Of a stretch of DNA of 64,000 nucleotides, positions 23,094 to 38,707 are shown in pieces; within the stretch, counting starts at the first letter, position 1, and every line of letters begins with the position of its first letter. Source of the stretch: Hyphomicrobiales bacterium. Its GTDB lineage: Bacteria; Pseudomonadota; Alphaproteobacteria; Rhizobiales; JAJFHB01. Location: positions 407,842 to 471,841 of the forward strand of contig JAJFHE010000050.1 in NCBI GenBank assembly GCA_021775755.1, written 5' to 3'. The position numbers and the translations under genes are program-made. The notes beneath the pieces are model-generated. The model saw only the letters and a program-made list of their open reading frames with translations. It was not told the origin of the DNA and did not search any database.

Positions 23094-24281
23094 ATGCCGC
23101 CGTCTGAACCACAATCCGCACCGCGAGACGAAATCGGCCTGCTGTCGCGATGCATTGCGTTGAACATGAACATCGATGAGCTGTCGGCGTTGCGTCTGGA
23201 GCTCCTATCCAGCCCCGCAAAGTGGACTGAAGTCATCGAGGCAGCACGCAAGCGTAATCTTTTTTCCATTCTGCGGCACCAACTCGCCGTGCACGGCCTG
23301 ATACCTCCCGCCGGCCCGAACAGCGGCGAGGATCTTGTGTCGATCCCGGCATTTTTTGCGAAGGTTGCCGCCGATCACACGTTGAAACGCCTGGAAATGA
23401 CAAATGGTCTTCGGCTGATCACTGGCATTTTGAACGGGATCGGCATTGAACCCGTCCTGCTCAAGGGTGCCATATCGTTGTGGACCGGCGAGCCCGGATG
23501 GCGTCAGTTGCGGGACCTGGACATCCTTGTTACTCCGGAACAGTCGAAGGCGGCGTTTCAAGCGCTTGTCGATAACGGGTTCTCGCTGGTCGAGAAGCCG
23601 GTTACGACCCCCTATCACTTAGCGGGTCTGCGCCGGCATGACATTCCAGGTTGGATCGAGTTTCACTTCGGTGCGTCCAGCATCCATGGCGAAGAACATC
23701 TGCCGACCGCGGAACTGCGCGCCGCGACAACGTTCAGCGAACAGAACGGCGTTCGTGCCGGTTTCTATCCCCTGCCCCTGCAGATCCTGCATGGCCTCAT
23801 CCACCATCATTTCCACCATCACTGCGGTCTCTACGGCATTATCCATCTCAAAGGGCTGTTTGAGTTCGCAGCCGCCATGGGTGCACTCTCCGAAGACGAG
23901 CGCGCGTTTCTTGCCGATCGCGTGACGTGGGACGCCCGGCTGCTTGCGGCGTTCGACCTTTGGATGGCCGGCGCGCAAGAGCTTCTTGGAATGGTTCCGC
24001 CGGCGGGCTTTGAGATTATGCCGGACGCGGTCGAGCGGTGGCAGCACGTGCGAAAACGCCTCGCCGACAACACCATGTGCAGCTACTACCGCGGGTACGT
24101 GGAGAGCATGGCCATGCTGATGAACGAGGACCGGCTACGGATCACCGCCAAGCGATCCGGCAAGAGCGTGCGGGAAATGGCAAGGACGGCGAGGTTCATG
24201 CCGGTCTGGCGAGCGCTTGACGCCCCGCACATGAGCAGCAAGAGATCGAACGTTCTCAAGTCGGCCGGGATTGTGAACTAG
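23094..24281 (+). CDS. Nucleotidyltransferase-like protein (NTP_transf_5 type)
   Basis: 395 residues. The segment GIEPVLLKGAISLW followed by QLRDLDILVTPEQSKAAFQAL is the core of the NTP_transf_5 nucleotidyltransferase fold (LKG, then DLDILV with the metal-binding Asp pair). The C-terminal half is helical and His-rich around HGLIHHHFHHHCGLYGI. Such proteins occur with PqqD-like and HprK-like genes in lasso-peptide and other peptide-modifying loci. The start MPPSEPQSAP is provisional; an in-frame start 20 codons earlier is possible. It is convergent with the TPR glycosyltransferase. Confidence 0.72.
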   Translation: MPPSEPQSAPRDEIGLLSRCIALNMNIDELSALRLELLSSPAKWTEVIEAARKRNLFSILRHQLAVHGLIPPAGPNSGEDLVSIPAFFAKVAADHTLKRLEMTNGLRLITGILNGIGIEPVLLKGAISLWTGEPGWRQLRDLDILVTPEQSKAAFQALVDNGFSLVEKPVTTPYHLAGLRRHDIPGWIEFHFGASSIHGEEHLPTAELRAATTFSEQNGVRAGFYPLPLQILHGLIHHHFHHHCGLYGIIHLKGLFEFAAAMGALSEDERAFLADRVTWDARLLAAFDLWMAGAQELLGMVPPAGFEIMPDAVERWQHVRKRLADNTMCSYYRGYVESMAMLMNEDRLRITAKRSGKSVREMARTARFMPVWRALDAPHMSSKRSNVLKSAGIVN

Positions 24282-24327
24282 AACAGTATGTGTTCATGAG
24301 GATCGACGCAGGCGCGCCGGCTATTCA

Positions 24328-25464
24328 TCAATCCGCAGGCATGCCCCGCCTGTCTTCGGCAACGCCCAGGCGTGCCTGAAGATCAAGGCGGCCGGGCTCT
24401 TCGCGCTGCGCCCTGCCAAACCACTCAGCGGAGCGCCCATAGTCACCCAACTCGAAGTGGCAAACCCCGAGCGACTCGTAAGCCAGAATGTCGAAAATGC
24501 GCCGGTCGTAGGACGCTTGCTCGCCGTAAACGGTCAAGCTGTCGATGGCGGCAAGTTCGCCGAGCAGGCCGGCGGCCCCCGCATAGTCGCGCTTGTGCAT
24601 CTTGACCCGTGCATCTGTCCACTTGATTGCCGGGCACTTGGGGAACAATCGGCGCGCCTCCGCAAGTAGATCGTCGTCAACTGTTTCGTGACGCTCCTGC
24701 CAGCGCAGCAATTCTCCGAACGCCTGCAGACCCGAACCGGAGGGAAGACTCTGAGCACGCACGAGTTCAACGGCGCGCCTCAGATACTTCGCGGCTTCCT
24801 GCGACCGTCCCAGTTCTTCCAGAATGGTCCCGACATGCCGCAGGTTGTAAATGTCGTTGGGCATATCTTCCAATTGCTTCTTAAGCAACGGAAGGTCGCG
24901 AGCGTATTTATGCGACTGTTCACCTTCGTACCCTATATGGTCGATCGTGAACGCGCACTTGCCGACTTCAAGTCCGTCTTCCTCACACATTCGCTCGATG
25001 CCGGGAATGATCTTCTCGTGCATGACCCGTGTGAAGCGAACACGCGGATCATTGCGAAATATCCGATACTCGTAATAGGCGGTGAAACCGGGCCTTGGAT
25101 GAAACCGGACCCGGTGGGCGGCTTTCGAAGGATCGGAAAGAAACGCCTCTACAGCCTCGCGATCGATATCTCGCACCCTCTCGTCAGCATCAATGTAAAG
25201 GATCCACTCGCCCGCCGCGGCATCCAGAGCGGCATTGCGTGCCTTGGAGAAGTCATTTTCCCAAGCAACGTCGAAAACCTTTGCACCGTGTTCGAGCGCG
25301 ACCAATTTCGTTCGATCCCGCGAACCGGTGTCGGCGATGATTATCTCATCTACCACATCGGAAATGGACGCCAGGCACTCCCCAAGCACAGTCTCTTCGT
25401 CGCGGACGATAAGTGCAGCGGAAAACAGAGGCCGTTCAGTCGTTTTTGTACGGGTGTTCAACAC
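24328..25464 (-). CDS. GT2 glycosyltransferase with C-terminal TPR-like repeats
   Basis: 378 residues. The N-terminal GT-A domain has SAALIVRDEETVLGECLAS, ADTGSRDRT and the DxD-like ILYIDADERV, plus ARNAALDAA and the late VMHEKI region. After about residue 200 it is helical with TPR-type repeats (LRHVGTILEELGRSQEAAKYL; ESLGVCHFELGDYGRSAEWF). This WaaE/SunS-like arrangement occurs in lipopolysaccharide and in peptide S-glycosyltransferases. The start is GTG at 25464 (TTG next is possible). It lies 70 bases downstream of the small peptide gene on the same strand, so the peptide is one conceivable acceptor. Confidence 0.82.
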   Translation of the reverse strand: MLNTRTKTTERPLFSAALIVRDEETVLGECLASISDVVDEIIIADTGSRDRTKLVALEHGAKVFDVAWENDFSKARNAALDAAAGEWILYIDADERVRDIDREAVEAFLSDPSKAAHRVRFHPRPGFTAYYEYRIFRNDPRVRFTRVMHEKIIPGIERMCEEDGLEVGKCAFTIDHIGYEGEQSHKYARDLPLLKKQLEDMPNDIYNLRHVGTILEELGRSQEAAKYLRRAVELVRAQSLPSGSGLQAFGELLRWQERHETVDDDLLAEARRLFPKCPAIKWTDARVKMHKRDYAGAAGLLGELAAIDSLTVYGEQASYDRRIFDILAYESLGVCHFELGDYGRSAEWFGRAQREEPGRLDLQARLGVAEDRRGMPAD

Positions 25465-25534
25465 GCCACCGTCCAGCCAAGCCTAATGGCTCCGGCGTTA
25501 TTCGGAGGAGCGTAAAGTCGCGGGCGAAGTACTA

Positions 25535-25714
25535 TTAAGAAGTTGTCGAGTTGGAGACGATCGCGGCCATGGCACTGTTGACCGTCAAGCCGTCCATGGA
25601 GAAGGATGCAACCGCCGGGGCAACGAACGCGGCGCCGGTAATAAACTTCTTTATGACGTCGCGACGGCCCGCGTCGACCTGATCGAGGATTTTCTGTTCG
25701 TTGTCTTTCGTCAT
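25535..25714 (-). CDS. 59-residue candidate precursor or signal-like peptide
   Basis: A small gene with an unusually good GGGAGGG ribosome site seven bases before its ATG. The product has a charged N-terminal half (TKDNEQKILDQVDAGRRDVI), then KKFITGAAFVAPAVASFSMD, and ends GLTVNSAMAAIVSNSTTS. The tail is rich in Ser/Thr, and the middle resembles short Tat-like leader sequences (RRDVIKKF). It lies between the HprK-related kinase and the TPR glycosyltransferase, downstream of a PqqD-like gene. It could be the substrate of these enzymes or a small secreted or anchored protein. I recognise the AAFVAPAVASFSMDGL pattern as recurring in short bacterial proteins but not a function. Confidence 0.7.
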   Translation of the reverse strand: MTKDNEQKILDQVDAGRRDVIKKFITGAAFVAPAVASFSMDGLTVNSAMAAIVSNSTTS

Positions 25715-25769
25715 CCGCTCGCCCTCCCAATTCGGACCATCTCACTGCTCAAAGCAGTTTGTTGATGCA

Positions 25770-25799
25770 TGTTTATCATTCCGCCGGCGCCGTGTGCAA
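25770..25799 (-). promoter_or_regulatory. Candidate promoter of the small peptide gene
   Basis: On the minus strand TTGCAC (25794-25799) is followed after 18 bases by TAAACA (25770-25775). This lies in a 158-base AT-richer gap after the kinase gene, about 56 bases upstream of the peptide ATG. Assignment rests on pattern only. Confidence 0.35.
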
Positions 25800-25872
25800 T
25801 ACGCAAATGGCAATTTTCGCCTGTAAAACCCATTTGCTCCAAGTTTCTATGGCGCAATAAATATGCGTAACC

Positions 25873-26724
25873 CTACTTTTCCTGTCCGGTATTCATTAGG
25901 ACGCGGATAACTTCATCGGCCGCCAACTGTGCGTCTCCATTGTATATCTGCCTGCACTGCGCGTGTTGTAACAGCATTGCGATGTCGGCAATCCAGCCTG
26001 GCCTGGAGTGAGTTGGCGGTGTTAGCTGTGAGGTGAGCATCTCCGCCAGTTCGATTTCAGGCAATATTCGGCTGGCTGTCTGACCACCTTTGTTGGCTTC
26101 AATAAAGAAGACGTGGTCTATGGACCTGACATCGATGTCCCAGGTATATCCAACGTCGGTGGGCGCCACTGCATAAACCCTTTGAAAGCCCGTATCGTCT
26201 TCAACGTAAGGCAGTGAGTCGATGATACCGGCAAACTCCGGATGGTGTTTAAGGCCGGCCTGTTTGATATGGAACCGCCTTGGGAAGACGACCGACTCCG
26301 AACCTCGCAGCATGATCCGTTCGTCACCCAGCACATCCGCACCGGAGAACATCAACCGTATGGCAATGGTCGATTTGCCGGCGCCGGACGCGCCGACTAT
26401 CACGGCGCGCTTACTGCCGAGCTGCACCGTGGCTGCGTGCAGATCAATCCACTCGCCCATGGCGTCGATCGCAAGCGCACGTACCTGGCCGAAAACACGC
26501 GACAGCACAAAGTGGGAGCTTGCCTCGCGGCACATGACCTCGCCATCCTGGCGGATGGCGAACAAGTTATCCTCGCGGATAATTTCAAACCGCAAGCTAC
26601 GGGTGACTTCGAACTCCTGGCGGGCATCCTGTGCAAGGTACCGCAGCGTGTGGGCGATCAGCTGCGTGTCGGTCGTGATCTCAACGTCGCAGGCCAGGAC
26701 CTGAAACGCGATGTGGTGCCTCAA
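25873..26724 (-). CDS. HprK-related kinase
   Basis: 283 residues. It has a P-loop GASGAGKSTIAIRLM (about 111-125), preceded by LHAATVQLGSKRAVIV, and DVLGDERIMLR downstream, the arrangement of HPr kinase/phosphorylase relatives (HprK-rel groups). No HPr gene is near. Relatives in lasso-peptide loci phosphorylate a C-terminal Ser of the precursor, which fits the Ser/Thr-rich end of the neighbouring peptide, but this is inference. Translation seems to start at a TTG that overlaps the PqqD stop codon (TTGA); no ATG or GTG lies near the expected start. N-terminal residues 1-100 lack recognisable motifs. Confidence 0.8.
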   Translation of the reverse strand: MRHHIAFQVLACDVEITTDTQLIAHTLRYLAQDARQEFEVTRSLRFEIIREDNLFAIRQDGEVMCREASSHFVLSRVFGQVRALAIDAMGEWIDLHAATVQLGSKRAVIVGASGAGKSTIAIRLMFSGADVLGDERIMLRGSESVVFPRRFHIKQAGLKHHPEFAGIIDSLPYVEDDTGFQRVYAVAPTDVGYTWDIDVRSIDHVFFIEANKGGQTASRILPEIELAEMLTSQLTPPTHSRPGWIADIAMLLQHAQCRQIYNGDAQLAADEVIRVLMNTGQEK

Positions 26725-26978
26725 GTGATCAGGCCCTCAGCGGTAAATTTCTCCAGGCATTCCGTGACCATCTGTTCGGGCGGCTCGGCAAGCTCATATG
26801 CGGACTGCATTATTGCCGGAATTTCCGACAGGGCGTTCGCACCGTTGCAGAGCTCAAGCACGACCGCGGCGGAATGGTTGAGATAGTGCACACGATCCAC
26901 TTCGGGCTGATAGACGATATACCCGTCCGCAACCGGGTTTATCTCCAGTCCTTCACTCTGCTTCGGTCGATCCGTCAT
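26721..26978 (-). CDS. PqqD-family peptide chaperone
   Basis: 85-residue PqqD-like protein, the fold that recognises leader peptides in RiPP and related pathways. Typical strand-helix pattern: EINPVADGYIVYQPEVDRVHYLNHSA, then AVVLELCNGANALSEIPAIM and a C-terminal helix EQMVTECLEKFTAEGLI. No PQQ biosynthesis genes are nearby, so the partner is the local peptide system. First gene of the minus-strand unit, overlapping the kinase gene by four bases, which implies the two proteins work together. Confidence 0.85.
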   Translation of the reverse strand: MTDRPKQSEGLEINPVADGYIVYQPEVDRVHYLNHSAAVVLELCNGANALSEIPAIMQSAYELAEPPEQMVTECLEKFTAEGLIT

Positions 26979-27138
26979 AGTTGCTTCCTCTACTTCACCA
27001 ACCCCGGCGCGTTTCTGGTCGTGTTATCGCGGGAGCGATAGGCTTCGTCAACATTTCGCTGAAATTGACGGGGCACACCTGGTTGTGCGACCAAGCAGCC
27101 CAGCTCCCGATTTGCGAACGCGATCCGCTCTGATCATC

Positions 27139-28038
27139 ATGTCCAACCAGACGCCTGTCACCATCCAGTTCTACAACAGCATTTTCGGCGACTGGCCGAA
27201 CGCCGCAGGCGCGAGATGCCGCGACCGCTGCAGGTTCATCATGGGCCCCAACGACTACCGTCACGCTGACGCGGTTGTCTTCCATCTGCCAACGATTGAG
27301 CATCTGGAATATATCGACAAGCCGGATGGACAGTTATGGGTCGGGTGGTCGATGGAAAGCACCGTCAACTATCCCATCATGGTCGACCCCATCCGCATGA
27401 GCCGGTTCGACCTCCAGATGAATTACCGCCGCGATGCGGACATCTGGGTTCCCTACATTCTGATGCCGGGAACCATACACCCTTTCCCATCGTCGCCGGA
27501 GAAGCCCGAAGCATCGCCCGTTGTGCATTTTCAATCGAACAGCCACGACAGATGCGGGCGGACGGGCTATGCGGCCGAGCTTATGAAGTATGTCAAGATC
27601 GATTCCTATGGCACTGTTTTGAATAATAAAACTCTTTCCGATAATGACCGTGTAAAAGGAATGCCTTATGACGTTGTCGGGCGTTACAAGTTTGCCTTGG
27701 CGTTCGAGAACTCGATCGCGCACGACTACGTTTCCGACAAGTTTTTCAAGGTCCTGATTGCCGGCACCGTTCCGGTCTATCTAGGCACTGAAACCGTCGC
27801 CGAACTCGCGCCGGGCGACGATTGTTACATTGATGCAGGGGACTTCGCCTCACCTCGAGAGCTGGCACGACACCTGAATCATCTGAACGAAAACGATGAT
27901 GTATACGCGGGATATCACCGATGGAGGCACAGACCCCTGCCGGCCTCGTTCCAGACGCATCTGGACCGTCTTTCAACGTCCATGCCCGATCGCCTGCATG
28001 ATTCGGTGCGCACTGCATTGGCGGCTAGAGCGGCATAG
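27139..28038 (+). CDS. GT10 alpha-(1,3)-fucosyltransferase-like protein
   Basis: 299 residues. The diagnostic C-terminal block of GT10 is present: RYKFALAFENSIAHDYVSDK followed by FFKVLIAGTVPVYLG, which binds GDP-fucose. N-terminal half carries VGWSMESTVNYP and VPYILMPGTIHPFP. The ATG at 27139 begins SNQTPVTIQFYN; an in-frame start 18 codons earlier is less likely. No signal peptide, so a cytoplasmic or peripheral enzyme of surface-glycan or lipid-linked oligosaccharide synthesis. It starts the glycan island, transcribed away from the PqqD gene. Confidence 0.85.
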   Translation: MSNQTPVTIQFYNSIFGDWPNAAGARCRDRCRFIMGPNDYRHADAVVFHLPTIEHLEYIDKPDGQLWVGWSMESTVNYPIMVDPIRMSRFDLQMNYRRDADIWVPYILMPGTIHPFPSSPEKPEASPVVHFQSNSHDRCGRTGYAAELMKYVKIDSYGTVLNNKTLSDNDRVKGMPYDVVGRYKFALAFENSIAHDYVSDKFFKVLIAGTVPVYLGTETVAELAPGDDCYIDAGDFASPRELARHLNHLNENDDVYAGYHRWRHRPLPASFQTHLDRLSTSMPDRLHDSVRTALAARAA

Positions 28039-28053
28039 CCTTGAACGGACGCC

Positions 28054-28827
28054 TTACTCGCGATGCAGAATCTCCAGATTGGGCATTCCCCAGCACTGGT
28101 GCCCCATGGCCTGGGCCATGATGCCGAAACCCTCTGTCTCCACCTCGCCACTCACGCCCGGCGGCAGGAACTCATTGCTCTGGCGGATCGCCGGATGCGC
28201 GGCGCCGAAGGGAAATGTGGGAAAAATCAGACCATCCCTGTGTAGATCGGCACGCACCAAAAGCATGGTGCCGCCGACCGTATCGAGCCGCACCAGATCG
28301 TCGCCCCCGCGCAGCTTGTCCATGTGGGTCTTGCCATGGTCGCACCAGGCGTTCCGGTCGAAAGTCTTGCCGCCATATTCCGTAACGCAATGCGGGTGCA
28401 CGATGTCGCGATCCATTGCGAGAAGCTGTTCGATTATGTCGGCGGGGTATTCGCAAACATCCACATCGAGCCACAACACCCAGTCTTCATCGCGCAGGGC
28501 GCTGAACAACAGCCGGTTGCGCGACTTGGCCAGCGTCGAGCGGCGCGGCAGCTGAAACGCCGGCGCCCAGCGCGGCACCGTTTCTGGAATTGTGAAACCG
28601 TAGTCGCGCTTCCAAACACCGGCATTCGCATAGCGGGCGTTGAGGTCAGGCAGCATCGATTGAAGCCTGCCAAAGGTGCCATCGCGGCTGTCACTTTCCA
28701 GAAATCCCAGCGACAGCCGGTTGGCCGGGTATGTCAGCTTCGCCAGTTGTTCAAAATAGGTGTCGAGATGCGGTTCGGCATCCTTGACCGGTGTGAGAAT
28801 CAGAATGTTTGCATCAGCACCGGCCAT
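28054..28827 (-). CDS. Anp1/Mnn9-like mannosyltransferase
   Basis: 257 residues resembling the Anp1/Mnn9/Van1 family of yeast mannan polymerase (GT62). It shows the opening LILTPVKDAEPHL, the LSLGFLESDSRDGT motif, and the WVLWLDVDVCEYPADIIEQL block containing the DxD nucleotide-sugar site. Later comes GGTMLLVRADLHRDGLIFPT, then the terminal EGFGIMAQAMG. Unlike the yeast proteins there is no membrane anchor. It follows the GT71-like gene by two bases, so they are cotranscribed and may act in sequence on one glycan. Confidence 0.78.
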   Translation of the reverse strand: MAGADANILILTPVKDAEPHLDTYFEQLAKLTYPANRLSLGFLESDSRDGTFGRLQSMLPDLNARYANAGVWKRDYGFTIPETVPRWAPAFQLPRRSTLAKSRNRLLFSALRDEDWVLWLDVDVCEYPADIIEQLLAMDRDIVHPHCVTEYGGKTFDRNAWCDHGKTHMDKLRGGDDLVRLDTVGGTMLLVRADLHRDGLIFPTFPFGAAHPAIRQSNEFLPPGVSGEVETEGFGIMAQAMGHQCWGMPNLEILHRE

Positions 28828-28829
28828 TA

Positions 28830-30155
28830 TCAGGCGCCCTCCTCGTTCTCTGTCACGCCTTCGTAGACGCTGACCGTCTGCTTCCATCCCCCCGGCCCCG
28901 TCGCATGGTTGTGGCCAGCCGAGGTGCCGGCTGTCTCAGGCGGAGCGCTCATGCCCATCAGATCCACTCTTGCGGCATCAGGGGAATTCCAGCGGCCGCG
29001 CCAAACACCGAACTCATCGCGCCGCAGCTTAAGACACGCCGCATCGCCGTTTCCGATGGCAAGCTCGAGCGCATCGTCTTCGGCCTCCTGAACCCACCAG
29101 TAAGCTTCGAGACGGCCATGGCCGCGGCCAATGCGGTGCGCTGTCAAAAACTCCATGGGCCAGGAGCTGTCGGCAACCTTCTCGTAAGTGAACCAGCGCT
29201 GCACCTCGATCTCCGAGGCGACGGCTTCGGCCTTTTTGGATGGGGCCGGCGGCTGGAAAATCTTGCCGTTCCAAACGCCACGCAACTCGTCCAGATAGCG
29301 AAAGCATCTATCCTCGCCATCGAACCCTTCAACGCTTGGATTGATGCCCTCCAGGGTCCACTTTCTGCGGTTGCGGTGCTGAAACAGCACGTTGCCGTCA
29401 AAGTCGTGCTGGCACAGGGTTCCCGGAAGCTGTCGCACCGGATGTTTCGGCATGGCGTATGCCTGCGCCAGCCGCAACCAGGCGAGCAGAAACGTGTCCT
29501 TGTCGCCATAGACGTGCCGGTAGAAAAAGTCCGAGTGATCGTTCATCGCCTTGGTGAGCTGCAGGGCGTGCCAGCACTTTGCCTTGTCGATGACAATCTG
29601 GCCGGTTTCGAATGACGGCGTGGAGCGGTACTCGACACCGCAGATCTCCCAAATCGACGCTCGTTGCGTGAGGGAAACGATGTCCGGCCAGAACACGCAG
29701 CCGGCTTCGCGATATTTCGGCGCCTCGAACAAAAAGGCCGGATCGCGCACAGGCACATTATCGGCATCCAGCAGCAGCACCTCGCGAAACCGGCAGTTCA
29801 TGATGGCATAGGGTTTAAGCTCCCAGCCTCCCAGGGCTTTCGCGGGAAACTCTTTCAGATGGGCTTGCGCATCGATGACCGCGACGCCCTGATCTTCCAG
29901 TATCGCCTTCATGGAGAGCGACATTTCGCCATCGCCGATATGCCAGACCTCGATGGGAAGGTCTGTACCCAGGTGATCGCGCAACGTGCGCACCGCGACC
30001 CAGGCACAGGTGAACATCCGCGCGCCGCCGGCGGGAATGACGATGCCCCTGCCCGCAAAACGTTCTGCGGGATATGGCGCGCCCGCAGCCGCCACCTCGT
30101 CGATGAGTGCCTGGTATTTCGCAAGCTCGTCTGAATGTTCTACACTTCCGCTCAA
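28830..30155 (-). CDS. GT71/Mnn1-like alpha-mannosyltransferase with C-terminal extension
   Basis: 441 residues. Residues about 36-290 match Mnn1-type glycosyltransferases: RGIVIPAGGARMFTCAWVAV, LPIEVWHIGDGEMS, GGWELKPYAIMNCRFREVLL and LLDADNVPVRDPAFLFEAP with the DxD. FWPDIVSLTQRASIW and FETGQIVIDKAKCW follow. A further 150 residues (from about 290) have WNGKIFQPPA, AYWWVQ and WRGRWNSPD, like a carbohydrate-binding or avidin-type strand domain, ending in a low-complexity tail. Only TTG at 30155 is available as an upstream start, so the N terminus is uncertain. Cotranscribed with the Anp1-like gene. Confidence 0.75.
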   Translation of the reverse strand: MSGSVEHSDELAKYQALIDEVAAAGAPYPAERFAGRGIVIPAGGARMFTCAWVAVRTLRDHLGTDLPIEVWHIGDGEMSLSMKAILEDQGVAVIDAQAHLKEFPAKALGGWELKPYAIMNCRFREVLLLDADNVPVRDPAFLFEAPKYREAGCVFWPDIVSLTQRASIWEICGVEYRSTPSFETGQIVIDKAKCWHALQLTKAMNDHSDFFYRHVYGDKDTFLLAWLRLAQAYAMPKHPVRQLPGTLCQHDFDGNVLFQHRNRRKWTLEGINPSVEGFDGEDRCFRYLDELRGVWNGKIFQPPAPSKKAEAVASEIEVQRWFTYEKVADSSWPMEFLTAHRIGRGHGRLEAYWWVQEAEDDALELAIGNGDAACLKLRRDEFGVWRGRWNSPDAARVDLMGMSAPPETAGTSAGHNHATGPGGWKQTVSVYEGVTENEEGA

Positions 30156-33603: not shown

Positions 33604-34572
33604 GTGCAGCATATACTGGTATTGGGTGCGGGCGGCTTCATCGGCACCCACCTGACGGATCGTTTGAAGCAGGAAGGCGCCTGGGTTCGAGGCGCCGATC
33701 TTAAACGCCCGGAATTTTCGACAAGCACAGCGGACGAATTCGTAACCGGCGATCTGCGCGATCAGCGGTTTTGCGTATCGCTGTTCGACCGGCCGTTTGA
33801 CGAAGTGTATCAACTGGCCGCGGATATGGGCGGCGCCGGGTTCATTTTCACAGGCGAAAATGATGCCGACATCATGCACAACTCCGCGACGATCAGCCTG
33901 AACGTGCTCGATTGCGCGACGAAGGCGAAGTGCCGGCGCATATTCTATTCATCCTCCGCCTGCATCTACCCCGAGCGGAACCAGGAAGACCCCGACAATC
34001 CCGATTGCCGCGAGCACACCGCTTATCCGGCGGACCCGGATAGCGAATACGGCTGGGAAAAACTCTTCAGCGAGCGGCTCTACCAGACCTACGCCAGGAA
34101 CAAGAACATCGAGGTGCGTATCGCGCGTTACCACAACATATTCGGTCCTCTCGGAACCTTTGAGGGGGGACGCGAAAAGGCGCCGGCGGCACTTTGCCGA
34201 AAGGCCGCGCTCGCAAACGACGGAGGCAGTTTGGAAATCTGGGGCGATGGCCGTCAGACACGTTCCTTTCTTTACGTCGACGAATGTATCGAAGGCACGC
34301 TTCGCCTGATGCGCTCCGACATTAGCGAACCGTTGAATATCGGCAGCGAAGAAATGGTGTCGATCGCCGACCTGGCGGCACGGATCATCGCCATATCAAG
34401 CAAATCGCTGACTGTATCGAACAAAGACGGGCCACTTGGGGTTCGTGGGAGGAATTCCAACAACGATCTCATCAGGGCACAACTGGGCTGGAGCCCGACA
34501 GCGCCCTTGAACGACGGATTGCGGGCCACTTACGATTGGATTGAAAGCAAGGTTGTTCGATCCGATGGCTGA
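33604..34572 (+). CDS. NAD-dependent epimerase, GDP-mannose 3,5-epimerase-like
   Basis: 322-residue extended short-chain dehydrogenase. It has the Rossmann motif LVLGAGGFIGTHL, the substrate strip QLAADMGGAGFI (typical of GDP-mannose 3,5-epimerases), SSSACIYPE, and the catalytic YGWEK (Tyr-x-x-x-Lys). Then come YHNIFGPLGTFEGGREKAPA and WGDGRQTRSFLYVDEC. It would act on a cytoplasmic GDP-sugar, consistent with adjacent mannosyl- and fucosyltransferases. Start is GTG at 33604 with AGGATC upstream. It overlaps the next gene by eight bases. Confidence 0.86.
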   Translation: MQHILVLGAGGFIGTHLTDRLKQEGAWVRGADLKRPEFSTSTADEFVTGDLRDQRFCVSLFDRPFDEVYQLAADMGGAGFIFTGENDADIMHNSATISLNVLDCATKAKCRRIFYSSSACIYPERNQEDPDNPDCREHTAYPADPDSEYGWEKLFSERLYQTYARNKNIEVRIARYHNIFGPLGTFEGGREKAPAALCRKAALANDGGSLEIWGDGRQTRSFLYVDECIEGTLRLMRSDISEPLNIGSEEMVSIADLAARIIAISSKSLTVSNKDGPLGVRGRNSNNDLIRAQLGWSPTAPLNDGLRATYDWIESKVVRSDG

Positions 34573-35644
34573 AGGGCGTTATCTCATCCACAAATCGTCT
34601 TTCGGACTTGGCCACATGTTTCGCGAGCTGGGTGCCGCGGCACTCTATGCACAGTTGAGTGGCCGCAAGCTGGTTATCGACTGGCGAAATACAGCCTATT
34701 TCGGTTTTGAGCCGAGCGAAAATATCTACCCGCACGTCATAAAGCGTGCCGGGAAAGGACGGCAGAGGGTCGACATCGTCACGGTCACCGACGAGCTTCA
34801 AGAAGTGCAAGATACCAACAGCCGCACATTTCCGGACATCCGGTGGTGCGAATGGTCTCCCGAGACCGAGGCGGAGCTTTACCAGATCATTCGGGATTCG
34901 GTCGGCGCACAAATTATACCCATTCTAAATGACATGGCCAAAGGCCGTAAGGCCGACCCATTTGAAGATTATGACTTCGTTTGGGGCGCTCGCGAATTTT
35001 GCGGTTATGCAAGGTTACGAAAGTGGGACGCACAAAGCCGCATGCGTTTGCGCGAGTTTTTCCAGGACGTCGAATTTGTGGATCCGATACACAGGCTCGC
35101 CGATGAGTTTATCCAACGCGAAATCACTGGCCAGAACGTAATTGGCGTTCATGTGCGGCACGGCAACGGTGAACAGGGTGATTTTGTCGCCAAAGGCCGC
35201 GTTATTTCCGACGACGAAGCTTATGTCGACGGACTTCTCCACAGACTCAACCAATGGGGCAAGGCGGCATTTGAAGGAAGTTTTCGAATTCTGGTCTGCA
35301 CAGATGCACCCATCATTCGGGACATGTTCGCAACGAAATGCAGGCACAGCATTCACCGACAACAGTGGCTTCCCGAGGCGAATGCCGGTGGAACCACCGT
35401 CATGGATGGCAACCGGGGTGCCAACACCATCGAGGTTCCCAATCCCGTTGGTGTCCTGCACGACACCGTCGCCGACATGCTGGTTCTATCGCACTGCCGC
35501 GTGCTTGACCTCTCAAGCCGAAGCGCATTCAACTATCTGCCGGCACTTTTGCAGATTGAGGGCGGTCAGTGCCACATGCGTGCCAACGAGGACAGGCCGC
35601 AGTACTGGTCGAGCCGGATTTCCATCGCACCGCATTCCACATAA
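34565..35644 (+). CDS. NodZ-like fucosyltransferase
   Basis: 359 residues. N-terminal IHKSSFGLGHMFRELGAAAL and the C-terminal GVHVRHGNGEQGDF resemble NodZ and related GT-B fucosyltransferases, where the Arg in HxRxGN contacts GDP-fucose. Further support comes from ILVCTDAPIIRDMF and the terminal LSHCRVLDLSSRSAFNYLPA. It is longer and more divergent than NodZ, so the acceptor is unlikely to be a Nod factor; no nod genes are near. The ATG lies within the epimerase stop region (ATGGCTGA). Confidence 0.72.
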   Translation: MAEGRYLIHKSSFGLGHMFRELGAAALYAQLSGRKLVIDWRNTAYFGFEPSENIYPHVIKRAGKGRQRVDIVTVTDELQEVQDTNSRTFPDIRWCEWSPETEAELYQIIRDSVGAQIIPILNDMAKGRKADPFEDYDFVWGAREFCGYARLRKWDAQSRMRLREFFQDVEFVDPIHRLADEFIQREITGQNVIGVHVRHGNGEQGDFVAKGRVISDDEAYVDGLLHRLNQWGKAAFEGSFRILVCTDAPIIRDMFATKCRHSIHRQQWLPEANAGGTTVMDGNRGANTIEVPNPVGVLHDTVADMLVLSHCRVLDLSSRSAFNYLPALLQIEGGQCHMRANEDRPQYWSSRISIAPHST

Positions 35645-35767
35645 GCCTGGAGCTGGCGGCGCGCTCGGTTGAGACCCAGCGCGATCGACGCCCGGTGTTG
35701 ACGCCACCCTTTGCTTTCATGCCGCATTGCGGTTATGACATCGGCCTCTTTGGCAAAGGGCCGCGGA

Positions 35768-36502
35768 ATGCTGTGCAAAAATATCCTAGAACGCGTGTTC
35801 TACGAACTCCACGGCATCGTTCGTGCTCCGTTGATGGGTACGATCGACCGGACCTCGAAGGCCTATCTCGACGGTTGTGGCGTCACGCAGTTGCTGTCGC
35901 AGGGCGACCCTGACGAAATCGAACCGGTCTATCGGGATCTCGCCTATTTGCATCGTCTTGTGCGGCAGCGAAAACCGATGACAATCGTCGAATTCGGCGT
36001 TGGACTTTCGACGATCACGCTTGCCCACGCGCTGGAGAAGAATGCATTGGAGAATGGCGAAAGAAAATCAGCCCGTCTCCACACACTCGACACTTCCGAA
36101 CACTGGCTGAACAACACCCGCGACAAACTTCCGGGCCAGCTTGCAGAGTTCGTGGAGCTTCATTCAAGCACGGCGCGCCTGAGCGTGATCAACGGCGAGC
36201 TCTGCCATCTGTTTGACGAGTTGCCGAATGTCGTGCCGGACCTGATCTATCTCGACGGTCCCGACCCAAGCATCGTCGAGGGCAGGATCAACGGTTTGAC
36301 AAATACGGTCGAGCGCGGCGAGCCGCGCCGCGCCATGTCCGCCGACCCCCTGCTCTATGAAGCCGGCCTGAAAATCGGCGCCACAATCGTTGTCGACAAC
36401 AGACGCATGAATACGAGGTTCCTGCGGCGTAATCTCAAACGGCGCTGGCGGTTTCAGGCAAACAAGGCCGAAGGCAGATATACATTCACGCTGCGAGACT
36501 AG
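35768..36502 (+). CDS. Class I SAM-dependent methyltransferase-like protein
   Basis: 244 residues from the ATG preceded by AAAGGG. The motif I region TIVEFGVGLSTITLAHALE, followed by LHTLDTSEHWLNNTRDKL and the acidic strand DLIYLDGPDP, indicate a Rossmann-fold methyltransferase. The end (TIVVDNRRMNTRFLRRNLKR) resembles proteins of sugar-modification loci. Other in-frame starts (35711 TTG, 35735 ATG) would lengthen it by up to 19 residues. Cotranscription with the NodZ-like gene is likely. Confidence 0.7.
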   Translation: MLCKNILERVFYELHGIVRAPLMGTIDRTSKAYLDGCGVTQLLSQGDPDEIEPVYRDLAYLHRLVRQRKPMTIVEFGVGLSTITLAHALEKNALENGERKSARLHTLDTSEHWLNNTRDKLPGQLAEFVELHSSTARLSVINGELCHLFDELPNVVPDLIYLDGPDPSIVEGRINGLTNTVERGEPRRAMSADPLLYEAGLKIGATIVVDNRRMNTRFLRRNLKRRWRFQANKAEGRYTFTLRD

Positions 36503-36661
36503 GCTCATAGCATTGGCCGTTTCCAGAACATGCGACCAAGCAGCACGGAGCCACGATTCTGACTGGAATCTGATGGACAGTGCTCGTTGATCGCAGGTAA
36601 CAAAGAACCTGCAGCAGACAGGCTTGGACCGGAACATTTTGTCGAAAGCCGGCAGGTGCCT

Positions 36662-37612
36662 ATGACCCTTAGCGAGACCAGTCAAACTTCTTTCAGGCCG
36701 ATGCGCCAGATCCGCCGGACCCGGGACCTTTACCGCTTCCTGTTCCGCAAACTTTACCTGCCTGTCGCCCTGGTTGACGCCATCGTGCGCGGCATTCGCT
36801 TTGCCGCAAACCCCTCACAGGGACGGCTCCGGCAGGGTGCGGTACGCCGGGCCTCCCAGGTCAAAGACACCGAGAGCAAACACCTGCGCGAGCGCGGGTA
36901 TCTGACATTCGAGGCCAGCCGGTTCCCTGGAACGAAGGCGGCCATGGCGGACTGCCGGCGTGTTTTCGCCGAGGCACAGGCTGAACTCGAAGCGCGCGGC
37001 AATCAGAAGAAGAACTTCCTGGTCACTGTGCGGAAAGATGCCGATTTTGCGGTGTGGCCAAACGTTTTTTCGTTTGCGTCTTCGCGCGAACTGATCGACC
37101 TCGCGGCGGTTTATCTGGAGCGGGTACCGGTTCTTTCCAGCGTTTCTCTTTGGTGGTCACCGCCCAATGACAGCGCCGTACAAAGCCAGATGTTCCATTG
37201 CGACCGCGAGGACACATCGGTGCTGAAAATGTTTTTCAATGTCGAAGAAGTCACCGCCGCGCATGGGCCCTTCTGCATGCTACCGGCGGATGTATCCGAC
37301 CAGATCAAGGACAGCCTCGACTACCGCCACTTGAAATCCTCGCGCGTCAGCGACGAAGACATAGCCGCGCACAGCGGCTTCGACCATCTGGTGACCTTTG
37401 AAGGGCCACGCAATACCGGTGCATGCGTCGATACTTCCAGATGCCTTCACTATGGATCCCGTGGCAATTCGAAATCGCGACTTGTGCTGATGCTCCGATA
37501 CTCCGACTATCTCGCGCCCTACACCGATATTCCCGACTGGTACGGGGCGCTCAGGGGAACGGACTATGCGTTGGACGATATCCAGCGCCTCGCACTGGGA
37601 TTGAGGACGTGA
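36662..37612 (+). CDS. PhyH-type Fe(II)/2-oxoglutarate dioxygenase-like protein
   Basis: 316 residues of the phytanoyl-CoA dioxygenase-like fold. The iron-binding HxD is visible in QMFHCDREDTSVLKMFFNV, and the distal His/Arg pair in SRCLHYGSRGNSKSRLVLML. N-terminal 70 residues are basic. In glycan or peptide loci such enzymes hydroxylate small acceptors; the substrate here is unknown. The start MTLSETSQ is favoured over an upstream TTG. It lies 159 bases after the methyltransferase. Confidence 0.75.
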   Translation: MTLSETSQTSFRPMRQIRRTRDLYRFLFRKLYLPVALVDAIVRGIRFAANPSQGRLRQGAVRRASQVKDTESKHLRERGYLTFEASRFPGTKAAMADCRRVFAEAQAELEARGNQKKNFLVTVRKDADFAVWPNVFSFASSRELIDLAAVYLERVPVLSSVSLWWSPPNDSAVQSQMFHCDREDTSVLKMFFNVEEVTAAHGPFCMLPADVSDQIKDSLDYRHLKSSRVSDEDIAAHSGFDHLVTFEGPRNTGACVDTSRCLHYGSRGNSKSRLVLMLRYSDYLAPYTDIPDWYGALRGTDYALDDIQRLALGLRT

Positions 37613-37726
37613 AACGGCCAAGGAACTACGACCGGCACCTGACGATTGCAATCGCCGTCGTCCTTGCACAATCTTTTCAATCGGGTCTAATGAACGTCAC
37701 AACCATGCAGGCTGAAGAGTAAGAAC

Positions 37727-38707
37727 ATGCAGGTACTGGAATCTTGCCCGTCATGTGAGAACGGCGATCTCGTGGACGTTGATTTGTCAACCAACCTCAC
37801 CGACACGCACAAAGCCATTATCGGCTCAAACGTCATCTGGGAGGCGAACTATGCCTATTGTCCGTGTTGCGAGCTCATGTTTGCCCGCAACAGGCAGGAT
37901 ACCGAAGAGATCGACGACTACTACGCCGCCTTTCCCGAAGTCGAGAAGCGCAGTTATACGGTTTACCCTCTGCCGCAGCAGTTCATCGACGTTCAGGAGA
38001 AGTTTTCCGAACGCCTGATCGGAAACGTTGAAAAAGCCGGCCTGATCCGGCCCGATATGAGCGTCCTCAATATCCGCTGCGAGTACGGCGTCCACCTCGC
38101 CCATTTGCGCGACAAATTCGGCGTGCAGGATCTCTACGGCCTCGACCACTTCGAAACCAACATGCAGTATGCTCGCGAGGATCTGGGACTATCAAATATC
38201 GGGTATCTCGACCCCTATCATGTTCATGTCCCGTTTGAACGCCAGTCGTTCGATCTGGTGCTCGCCAATCATCTGATGACCCATGCGCTCGATCCAATGG
38301 CGTTGCTGGCTCATTTGCGTTCTCTCGTGGCACCGGGCGGTGCGATCGTGTTCTACAACGAGCTTGACCATATGGGGCTCATGGACATGCGCAAAATGTA
38401 CCGGCGCGGCGTCATCAGCTATCATAAACAGTTGCTGACACGGAACAGCCTGCAGAACATGTTGAAGCGCGCCGGCTACCGTTTCGATTTCCTCGACTAT
38501 GACACCACCGGGATCAAGTGGGCTTCGGGCCGCCATTCAATGGCGATCGCGGCTTGTCCGGACACTCCTGCAAGCGTGTCGGAACTCACCGCGCCAGCTG
38601 CCGAGAACCTCTATCAGGCCTACCTTGACGGCTATGACAGACACGCCCCCAACAAGCTGCTGCGTACAGTGAAAAAGGCGCTCGGCATGGAACAGATATC
38701 GGCGTGA
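37727..38707 (+). CDS. SAM methyltransferase with N-terminal zinc-ribbon
   Basis: 326 residues. The first 50 carry CPSC (7-10) and CPCC (45-48), a four-Cys zinc site usual in sugar C-methyltransferases and related proteins. Motif I is altered (VLNIRCEYGVHLAHLRDKF where a GxGxG is expected) but the later LVLANHLMTHALDPMALL and LVAPGGAIVFYNE match the family. The altered SAM loop may reduce or change activity. Last gene of the glycan island on this strand, convergent with the receptor gene. Confidence 0.75.
   Translation: MQVLESCPSCENGDLVDVDLSTNLTDTHKAIIGSNVIWEANYAYCPCCELMFARNRQDTEEIDDYYAAFPEVEKRSYTVYPLPQQFIDVQEKFSERLIGNVEKAGLIRPDMSVLNIRCEYGVHLAHLRDKFGVQDLYGLDHFETNMQYAREDLGLSNIGYLDPYHVHVPFERQSFDLVLANHLMTHALDPMALLAHLRSLVAPGGAIVFYNELDHMGLMDMRKMYRRGVISYHKQLLTRNSLQNMLKRAGYRFDFLDYDTTGIKWASGRHSMAIAACPDTPASVSELTAPAAENLYQAYLDGYDRHAPNKLLRTVKKALGMEQISA

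Follow-up and report, generated by a model that had tools for sequence, protein, structure and literature searches.

A gene for a 59-residue peptide in a Hyphomicrobiales bacterium probably supplies the starting material for a modified-peptide pathway not yet described. It lies in a compact locus at 23094–26978 of a 64,000-nucleotide stretch of contig JAJFHE010000050.1 (the window), for which an original prediction, made from the letters alone, had listed a PqqD-like leader-binding protein, an HprK-like kinase, the peptide, a family 2 glycosyltransferase with tetratricopeptide repeats (GT2-TPR) and a convergent NTP_transf_5 nucleotidyltransferase. All five are genuine genes and stand where they were placed. 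We read the locus as resembling those of the ribosomally synthesized and post-translationally modified peptides (RiPPs), with the peptide as substrate and the neighboring enzymes as its modifiers, and put the probability of this reading at roughly 0.55. We favor it because the peptide keeps a constant slot between kinase and GT2-TPR, a PqqD homolog is nearby in 11/11 loci, the proteins resemble SunS, ThuS and GmaR on the one hand and TfuB1 on the other, and the catalytic motifs are conserved. The prediction had not recognized the combination as described; no description of the gene set was found in the literature searched, and searches on PqqD with HprK, on HprK-related kinase and on PF14907 gave nothing useful. 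This is apparently a conserved and undescribed type of operon for peptide modification. It offers a defined, testable substrate, tandem elsewhere, for an enzyme set of unknown target, and if the reading is true, it joins kinase, glycosyltransferase and nucleotidyltransferase chemistry in a new class of peptide modification.

Four of the genes are on the reverse strand. The PqqD gene (26721–26978; 85 amino acids) and that of the kinase (25873–26724; 283 amino acids, TTG start) have 4 nt in common where the former ends and the latter begins, as suits the translational coupling that had been proposed. A gap of 158 bp separates the kinase from the peptide gene (25535–25714), and one of 70 bp separates the peptide gene from GT2-TPR (24328–25464; 378 amino acids). 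The strong ribosome site claimed for the peptide is a GGGAGGG at 25722–25728, 8–14 nt 5' of the ATG. The nucleotidyltransferase gene (23094–24281; 395 amino acids) runs toward these on the forward strand.

The peptide is more than a chance open reading frame, because 10 further loci have a homolog in the corresponding position and because dN/dS (the ratio of nonsynonymous to synonymous substitution rates) is mostly 0.06–0.35 across ten Phreatobacter copies. On this sequence evidence, it is a true gene under purifying selection in the relatives. A search with the kinase led to a relative (G067) carrying seven tandem 60-residue peptides in the slot of the window's single one. A profile search then recovered copies in G159 (three), G335, G996, G994 and G802 (two loci), in records named Phreatobacter sp. 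(L040), Bradyrhizobium diazoefficiens SZCCT0138 (L041) and Bradyrhizobium sp. LY.8 (L042), and in a metagenome-assembled Rhodospirillaceae genome (L043). The hosts are distantly related alphaproteobacteria, and the copy number ranges from one to seven over the loci, including Phreatobacter arrays of seven and three and an array of two. Counting G802 C1 and L041 as one locus and G159 and L040 as another, there are 11 peptide loci, the window included. In all of them, the peptide gene or genes come after the kinase and before GT2-TPR; PqqD, kinase and GT2-TPR genes are present in 11/11 and NTP_transf_5 in 10/11.

The linkage can also be viewed from the kinase. Of 396 Rhizobiales genomes searched, five (G000, G067, G159, G335 and G052) carry close kinase relatives (E <= 2.3e-38), and in 5/5 the peptide is in its slot. 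Since most of these kinases had gone into the search profile, the result is best taken to mean that the kinase subfamily occurs in no genome without the peptide. The most independent case is G052, whose peptide is strongly diverged and was recognized mainly from its position. The search for conserved linkage that had been proposed as a check thus shows the link between the peptide and the PqqD/kinase pair whichever of them is the starting point. No kinase relatives were found in the viral contigs searched, and neither kinase nor peptide relatives in the plasmids searched. Five weak peptide matches (G266, G170, G278, G561 and G710) were not counted. The absence of core genes there covers the two annotated loci, G278 and G561, only; the G561 match resembles an ArsR-type regulator and shows that, on small sets, the peptide profile can be wrong for matches near 1e-6. 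A partial match in G832 (L045 961–1605), the fragment STAMDGLVITDANAFVTNSS, lies apart from any cluster and has no core gene near it; it is likely a remnant of a peptide gene, and the host is probably a Bradyrhizobium.

An alignment of 12 copies divides the peptide into a conserved leader and a variable tail, as is general for RiPP precursors. The leader (residues 1–50; 25565–25714) has D..[KR]R followed by the block G-A-A-F-x-x-P-x-V-A-S-F-x-M-D-G-L, and ends in most copies with A-x-A (A48-M49-A50 in the window); its conserved residues, in window numbering, are R18, A29, F30, P33, A36, F38, D41, L43 and A48. The tail of the window copy, AIVSNSTTS (residues 51–59; 25538–25564), is the candidate modified core, with N55-S56-T57. 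Tails are mostly 6–13 residues after A-x-A. Some relatives have GVTLPNSTAS, IVPNAS, or QVANGSGV followed by a further two to five residues that vary; others have VTNGTGSGISPA, QQTNSSN, GKVMASNS, LSMAGNAG (G052) or a Thr-run tail beginning ANGPTSTTTTTTT. The SNSTTS end that the prediction had singled out is not conserved as such; what the relatives share is an Asn with Ser or Thr nearby. Every tail has both, and N-x-[ST] occurs in 8/11 loci. A strict N-x-S/T sequon was dropped as a rule, being absent from 3/11 loci; its shuffle P is about 5e-4, but the loci are not independent. Tandem copies have a common leader and differ at the last residues, which makes them look like precursors.

In one Bradyrhizobium copy (L042 9968–10405), the reading frame continues from the peptide into a Peptidase_S74 autocleavage domain (PF13884, 1.1e-7), which starts at about SDRRLK, immediately after NGTGSALPP. 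The Ser-Lys spacing there equals that of the known S74 dyads S587/K592 and S911/K916 (PMC8326128), so self-cleavage would yield a tail resembling the ones found in the other Bradyrhizobium peptides. The fusion is consistent with a short functional tail.

The PqqD protein passes its family cut-off (PF05402, 28.5 bits against 23.4; 2e-6), and a profile of 11 homologs matches PqqD itself and TfuB1, the leader-binding protein of a lasso peptide system (1.2e-4), among PDB structures. A predicted leader-recognition element beside the precursor, as expected of RiPPs, is therefore present in 11/11 loci. The kinase has an intact P-loop, GASGAGKST, and keeps the invariant Asp. Its family matches are weak, the best being HprK_rel_B, HprK_rel_A and HprK, and its profile matches the HprK/P structure 1ko7 at 7.3e-6. 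Phreatobacter also has second kinase copies beside PqqD (L010 12740–13573; L032 4703–5599), with the degenerate P-loops GDQRCGRTT and GSPGDRSTL; these are likely pseudokinases.

The GT2-TPR protein (PF00535, 2e-16, plus the repeats) is, by profile and by modeled fold, nearest to the peptide and protein glycosyltransferases SunS, ThuS and GmaR, in agreement with the peptide-glycosylating role suggested for it. Its profile matches GmaR at 7.8e-45, the top PDB sequence match, and SunS at 4.7e-36. A fold search with its structure model (pLDDT 91.3) places SunS and ThuS first at 5.3e-19, with the next family at 2.4e-8. The motifs D-T-G-S, D-A-D-E-R and H-E are invariant among homologs. In the nucleotidyltransferase (PF14907, 4.9e-14), a KG...RDxD motif is conserved in 10 homologs, the R being MGD-type in one copy; the model (pLDDT 79.4) has weak fold matches to the nucleotidyltransferases MenT1, TM1012 and LnuA.

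The conserved unit is broader than the five genes and reaches about 30155. The prediction was right about the core and overlooked three further glycosyltransferases: a GT10 (fucosyltransferase-type) enzyme at 27085–28038 on the forward strand (PF00852, 2.4e-33), and, on the reverse strand, an Anp1 (mannosyltransferase-type) enzyme at 28054–28887 (PF03452, 1.4e-49) and a Mannosyl_trans3 enzyme at 28830–30155 (PF11051, 5.3e-34). Near the peptide, Mannosyl_trans3 homologs occur in 10/11 loci, Anp1 in 9/11, GT4 in 8/11 and GT10 in 3/11. A glycan is therefore indicated as much as a phosphate. On another contig of the window genome (C18; L009 9195–12894), there is a second cluster of kinase, GT4 and Mannosyl_trans3 genes, with no recognized peptide; this cluster and the window locus together make up a set that is held in one Phreatobacter operon.

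From the gene identities, linkage, order, selection, motifs and glycosyltransferase fold, we infer the following course of leader binding, modification and export. The conserved leader would be bound by PqqD, presenting the short tail in the cytoplasm. The kinase may phosphorylate a Ser or Thr of the tail, and the SunS/GmaR-type enzyme may add a sugar to Ser or Thr (less likely Asn). The NTP_transf_5 protein could then put a nucleotidyl or hexosyl group on the phosphate, as reported for PsmN on pseudomycoidin, a peptide whose C-terminal Ser is phosphorylated by PsmK and receives hexoses through PsmN (PMC9266682). A GT2-family glycocin enzyme cluster likewise leads to O-GlcNAc (O-linked N-acetylglucosamine) on Ser/Thr (PMC8620827). 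In most loci, the sugar would be lengthened by the Mannosyl_trans3, GT4 and Anp1 enzymes, and the modified peptide would be exported and cleaved after A-x-A to a product of roughly 6–13 residues. Several observations weigh against this course. The tails vary, one being a 45-residue Thr-rich stretch and that of G052 being LSMAGNAG. The G052 stretch also lacks NTP_transf_5, and around the five-gene core of G994 no extending glycosyltransferases lie within about 9 kb. The cluster contains no gene dedicated to leader cleavage or to export.

The abundance of extending enzymes raises the alternative that a surface oligosaccharide is primed by, or anchored to, the peptide. GT2-TPR would add the first sugar, Mannosyl_trans3, GT4, Anp1 and GT10 would build the chain, and the kinase and NTP_transf_5 would cap or regulate it; the glycan would be the product and the peptide its handle. 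The frequencies of Mannosyl_trans3, Anp1 and GT4 given above suit this, as do the epimerase and NodZ-type genes at 33604–35644 of the window and the second Mannosyl_trans3, GT4 and kinase cluster in its genome. The G994 core, complete without extending enzymes, argues the other way, and none of the scanned proteins, which did not include every neighbor, was identified as a flippase or polymerase. We regard this alternative as unlikely, if the strongest of those considered. The peptide also has the look of a signal peptide, with a basic n-region, a hydrophobic stretch and A-x-A, and it might be a plain exported small protein with a vestigial tail, left unmodified by enzymes that act on another target and are linked to it by shared regulation. 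An RR pair in the window and L043 copies and the recurrence of leaders like those of twin-arginine translocation (Tat) substrates beside related cassettes point in that direction. Yet most copies have KR, and against the Tat motif (S/T)RRxFLK, the window's GRRDVIKK and its relatives show no consensus. With one exception, the close homologs have an Asp after the hydrophobic stretch, and the tandem multiplication, the constant kinase/glycosyltransferase slot and the leader-binding PqqD better suit a substrate, which leaves plain export improbable. Still less probable is that the peptide is an HPr-like regulator through whose phosphorylation the kinase controls glycan synthesis by the neighbors. 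The kinase profile does match HprK/P, and the P-loop-degenerate second kinases of Phreatobacter suggest non-catalytic roles, but a 59-residue signal-like peptide is unlike HPr, and tandem arrays of as many as seven similar copies, differing slightly at the C terminus, suggest precursors.

A modified-peptide locus of the kind we favor resembles several known systems without belonging to them. The uncharacterized HPr-rel-A system (NCBIfam TIGR04352, HprK-related kinase A; TIGR04353, PqqD) likewise has PqqD, an HprK-like kinase and an adjoining NTP_transf_5, and in most loci inspected a leader-bearing gene adjoins the cassette. Formal membership was rejected, as both proteins fall far under the cut-offs (kinase 28.3 bits against 200; PqqD 22.1 against 35). 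The neighbor there is a protein of 160–214 residues, whereas the window has the 59-residue peptide and a SunS-like glycosyltransferase in the core. The pseudomycoidin psm cluster shares a PqqD-type leader-binding domain and the action of a kinase and a nucleotidyltransferase homolog on one peptide Ser (PMC9266682). The prediction had noted that lasso cyclase, asparagine-synthetase-like and protease genes are lacking, and none of the main predicted proteins scanned at 16–42 kb, a set short of every open reading frame, is an asparagine-synthetase-like cyclase or a transglutaminase-like leader protease. A lasso ring needs Asp or Glu at core position 7–9, whereas AIVSNSTTS has neither, and lasso membership was rejected on both grounds. 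Like the glycocins (SunS/ThuS), the locus pairs a small peptide gene with a GT2 peptide glycosyltransferase, whose predicted fold is the same (TM 0.63 to SunS). It adds the kinase, PqqD and NTP_transf_5, scores 53.3 bits on the SunS model TIGR04195 against a cut-off of 350, and has no Cys in its peptide, hence no S-linkage or disulfides; glycocin membership was rejected on the score and on the lack of a Cys-containing core. GmaR, the Listeria glycosyltransferase and antirepressor, belongs to another genomic setting, and no flagellin/MogR context was seen near the window locus.

The HPr-rel-A family cut-off is passed in 45 of 249 Pseudomonadota genomes. In 17 of 20 HPr-rel-A loci inspected, a gene for a 160–214-residue protein lies in the stretch beside the kinase (loci noted for it are L113, L115–L127, L130–L132 and L135). 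The protein has a Tat-like leader of the form xRRRxLLKGLxxGVPxIxTL..A and, as a rule, SCWxSF close to its C terminus; three of the 17 seeded the profile used to find them. Four that were tested have no Pfam or NCBIfam matches. This leader-bearing protein is a candidate substrate of the HPr-rel-A system, and the window locus suggests a role for the NTP_transf_5 proteins and HprK-related kinases there, namely modification of the leader-bearing neighbor. Taken furthest, the window locus would represent a new RiPP class of exported phospho- or glyco-mini-peptides, with a PqqD-held leader, a kinase, a SunS/GmaR-type glycosyltransferase and NTP_transf_5, and an oligosaccharide built on an Asn/Ser/Thr tail, and PqqD/HprK/NTP_transf_5 cassettes including HPr-rel-A may modify adjacent leader-bearing proteins. 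We hold this wider proposal tentatively, at somewhat less than even odds. Several of the wider PqqD-HprK/NTP_transf_5 loci in Rhizobiales adjoin short Tat-like peptides whose tails vary and are in some cases rich in Thr (L034 8733–11751; L094, L097–L104, L106, L112 and L011); none was found in L093, L095 and L096. The choice of these peptides was made partly by eye, and Tat signals are alike, so common descent with the window peptide does not follow from the resemblance.

Terminator-like sites are no more numerous than in shuffled sequences, and promoter-like sites (5 against 2.1 +/- 1.6 in shuffles) were not used as evidence. Farther along the window, epimerase, NodZ-type glycosyltransferase and methyltransferase genes at 33604–38707 suggest a nearby deoxysugar or glycan cluster.

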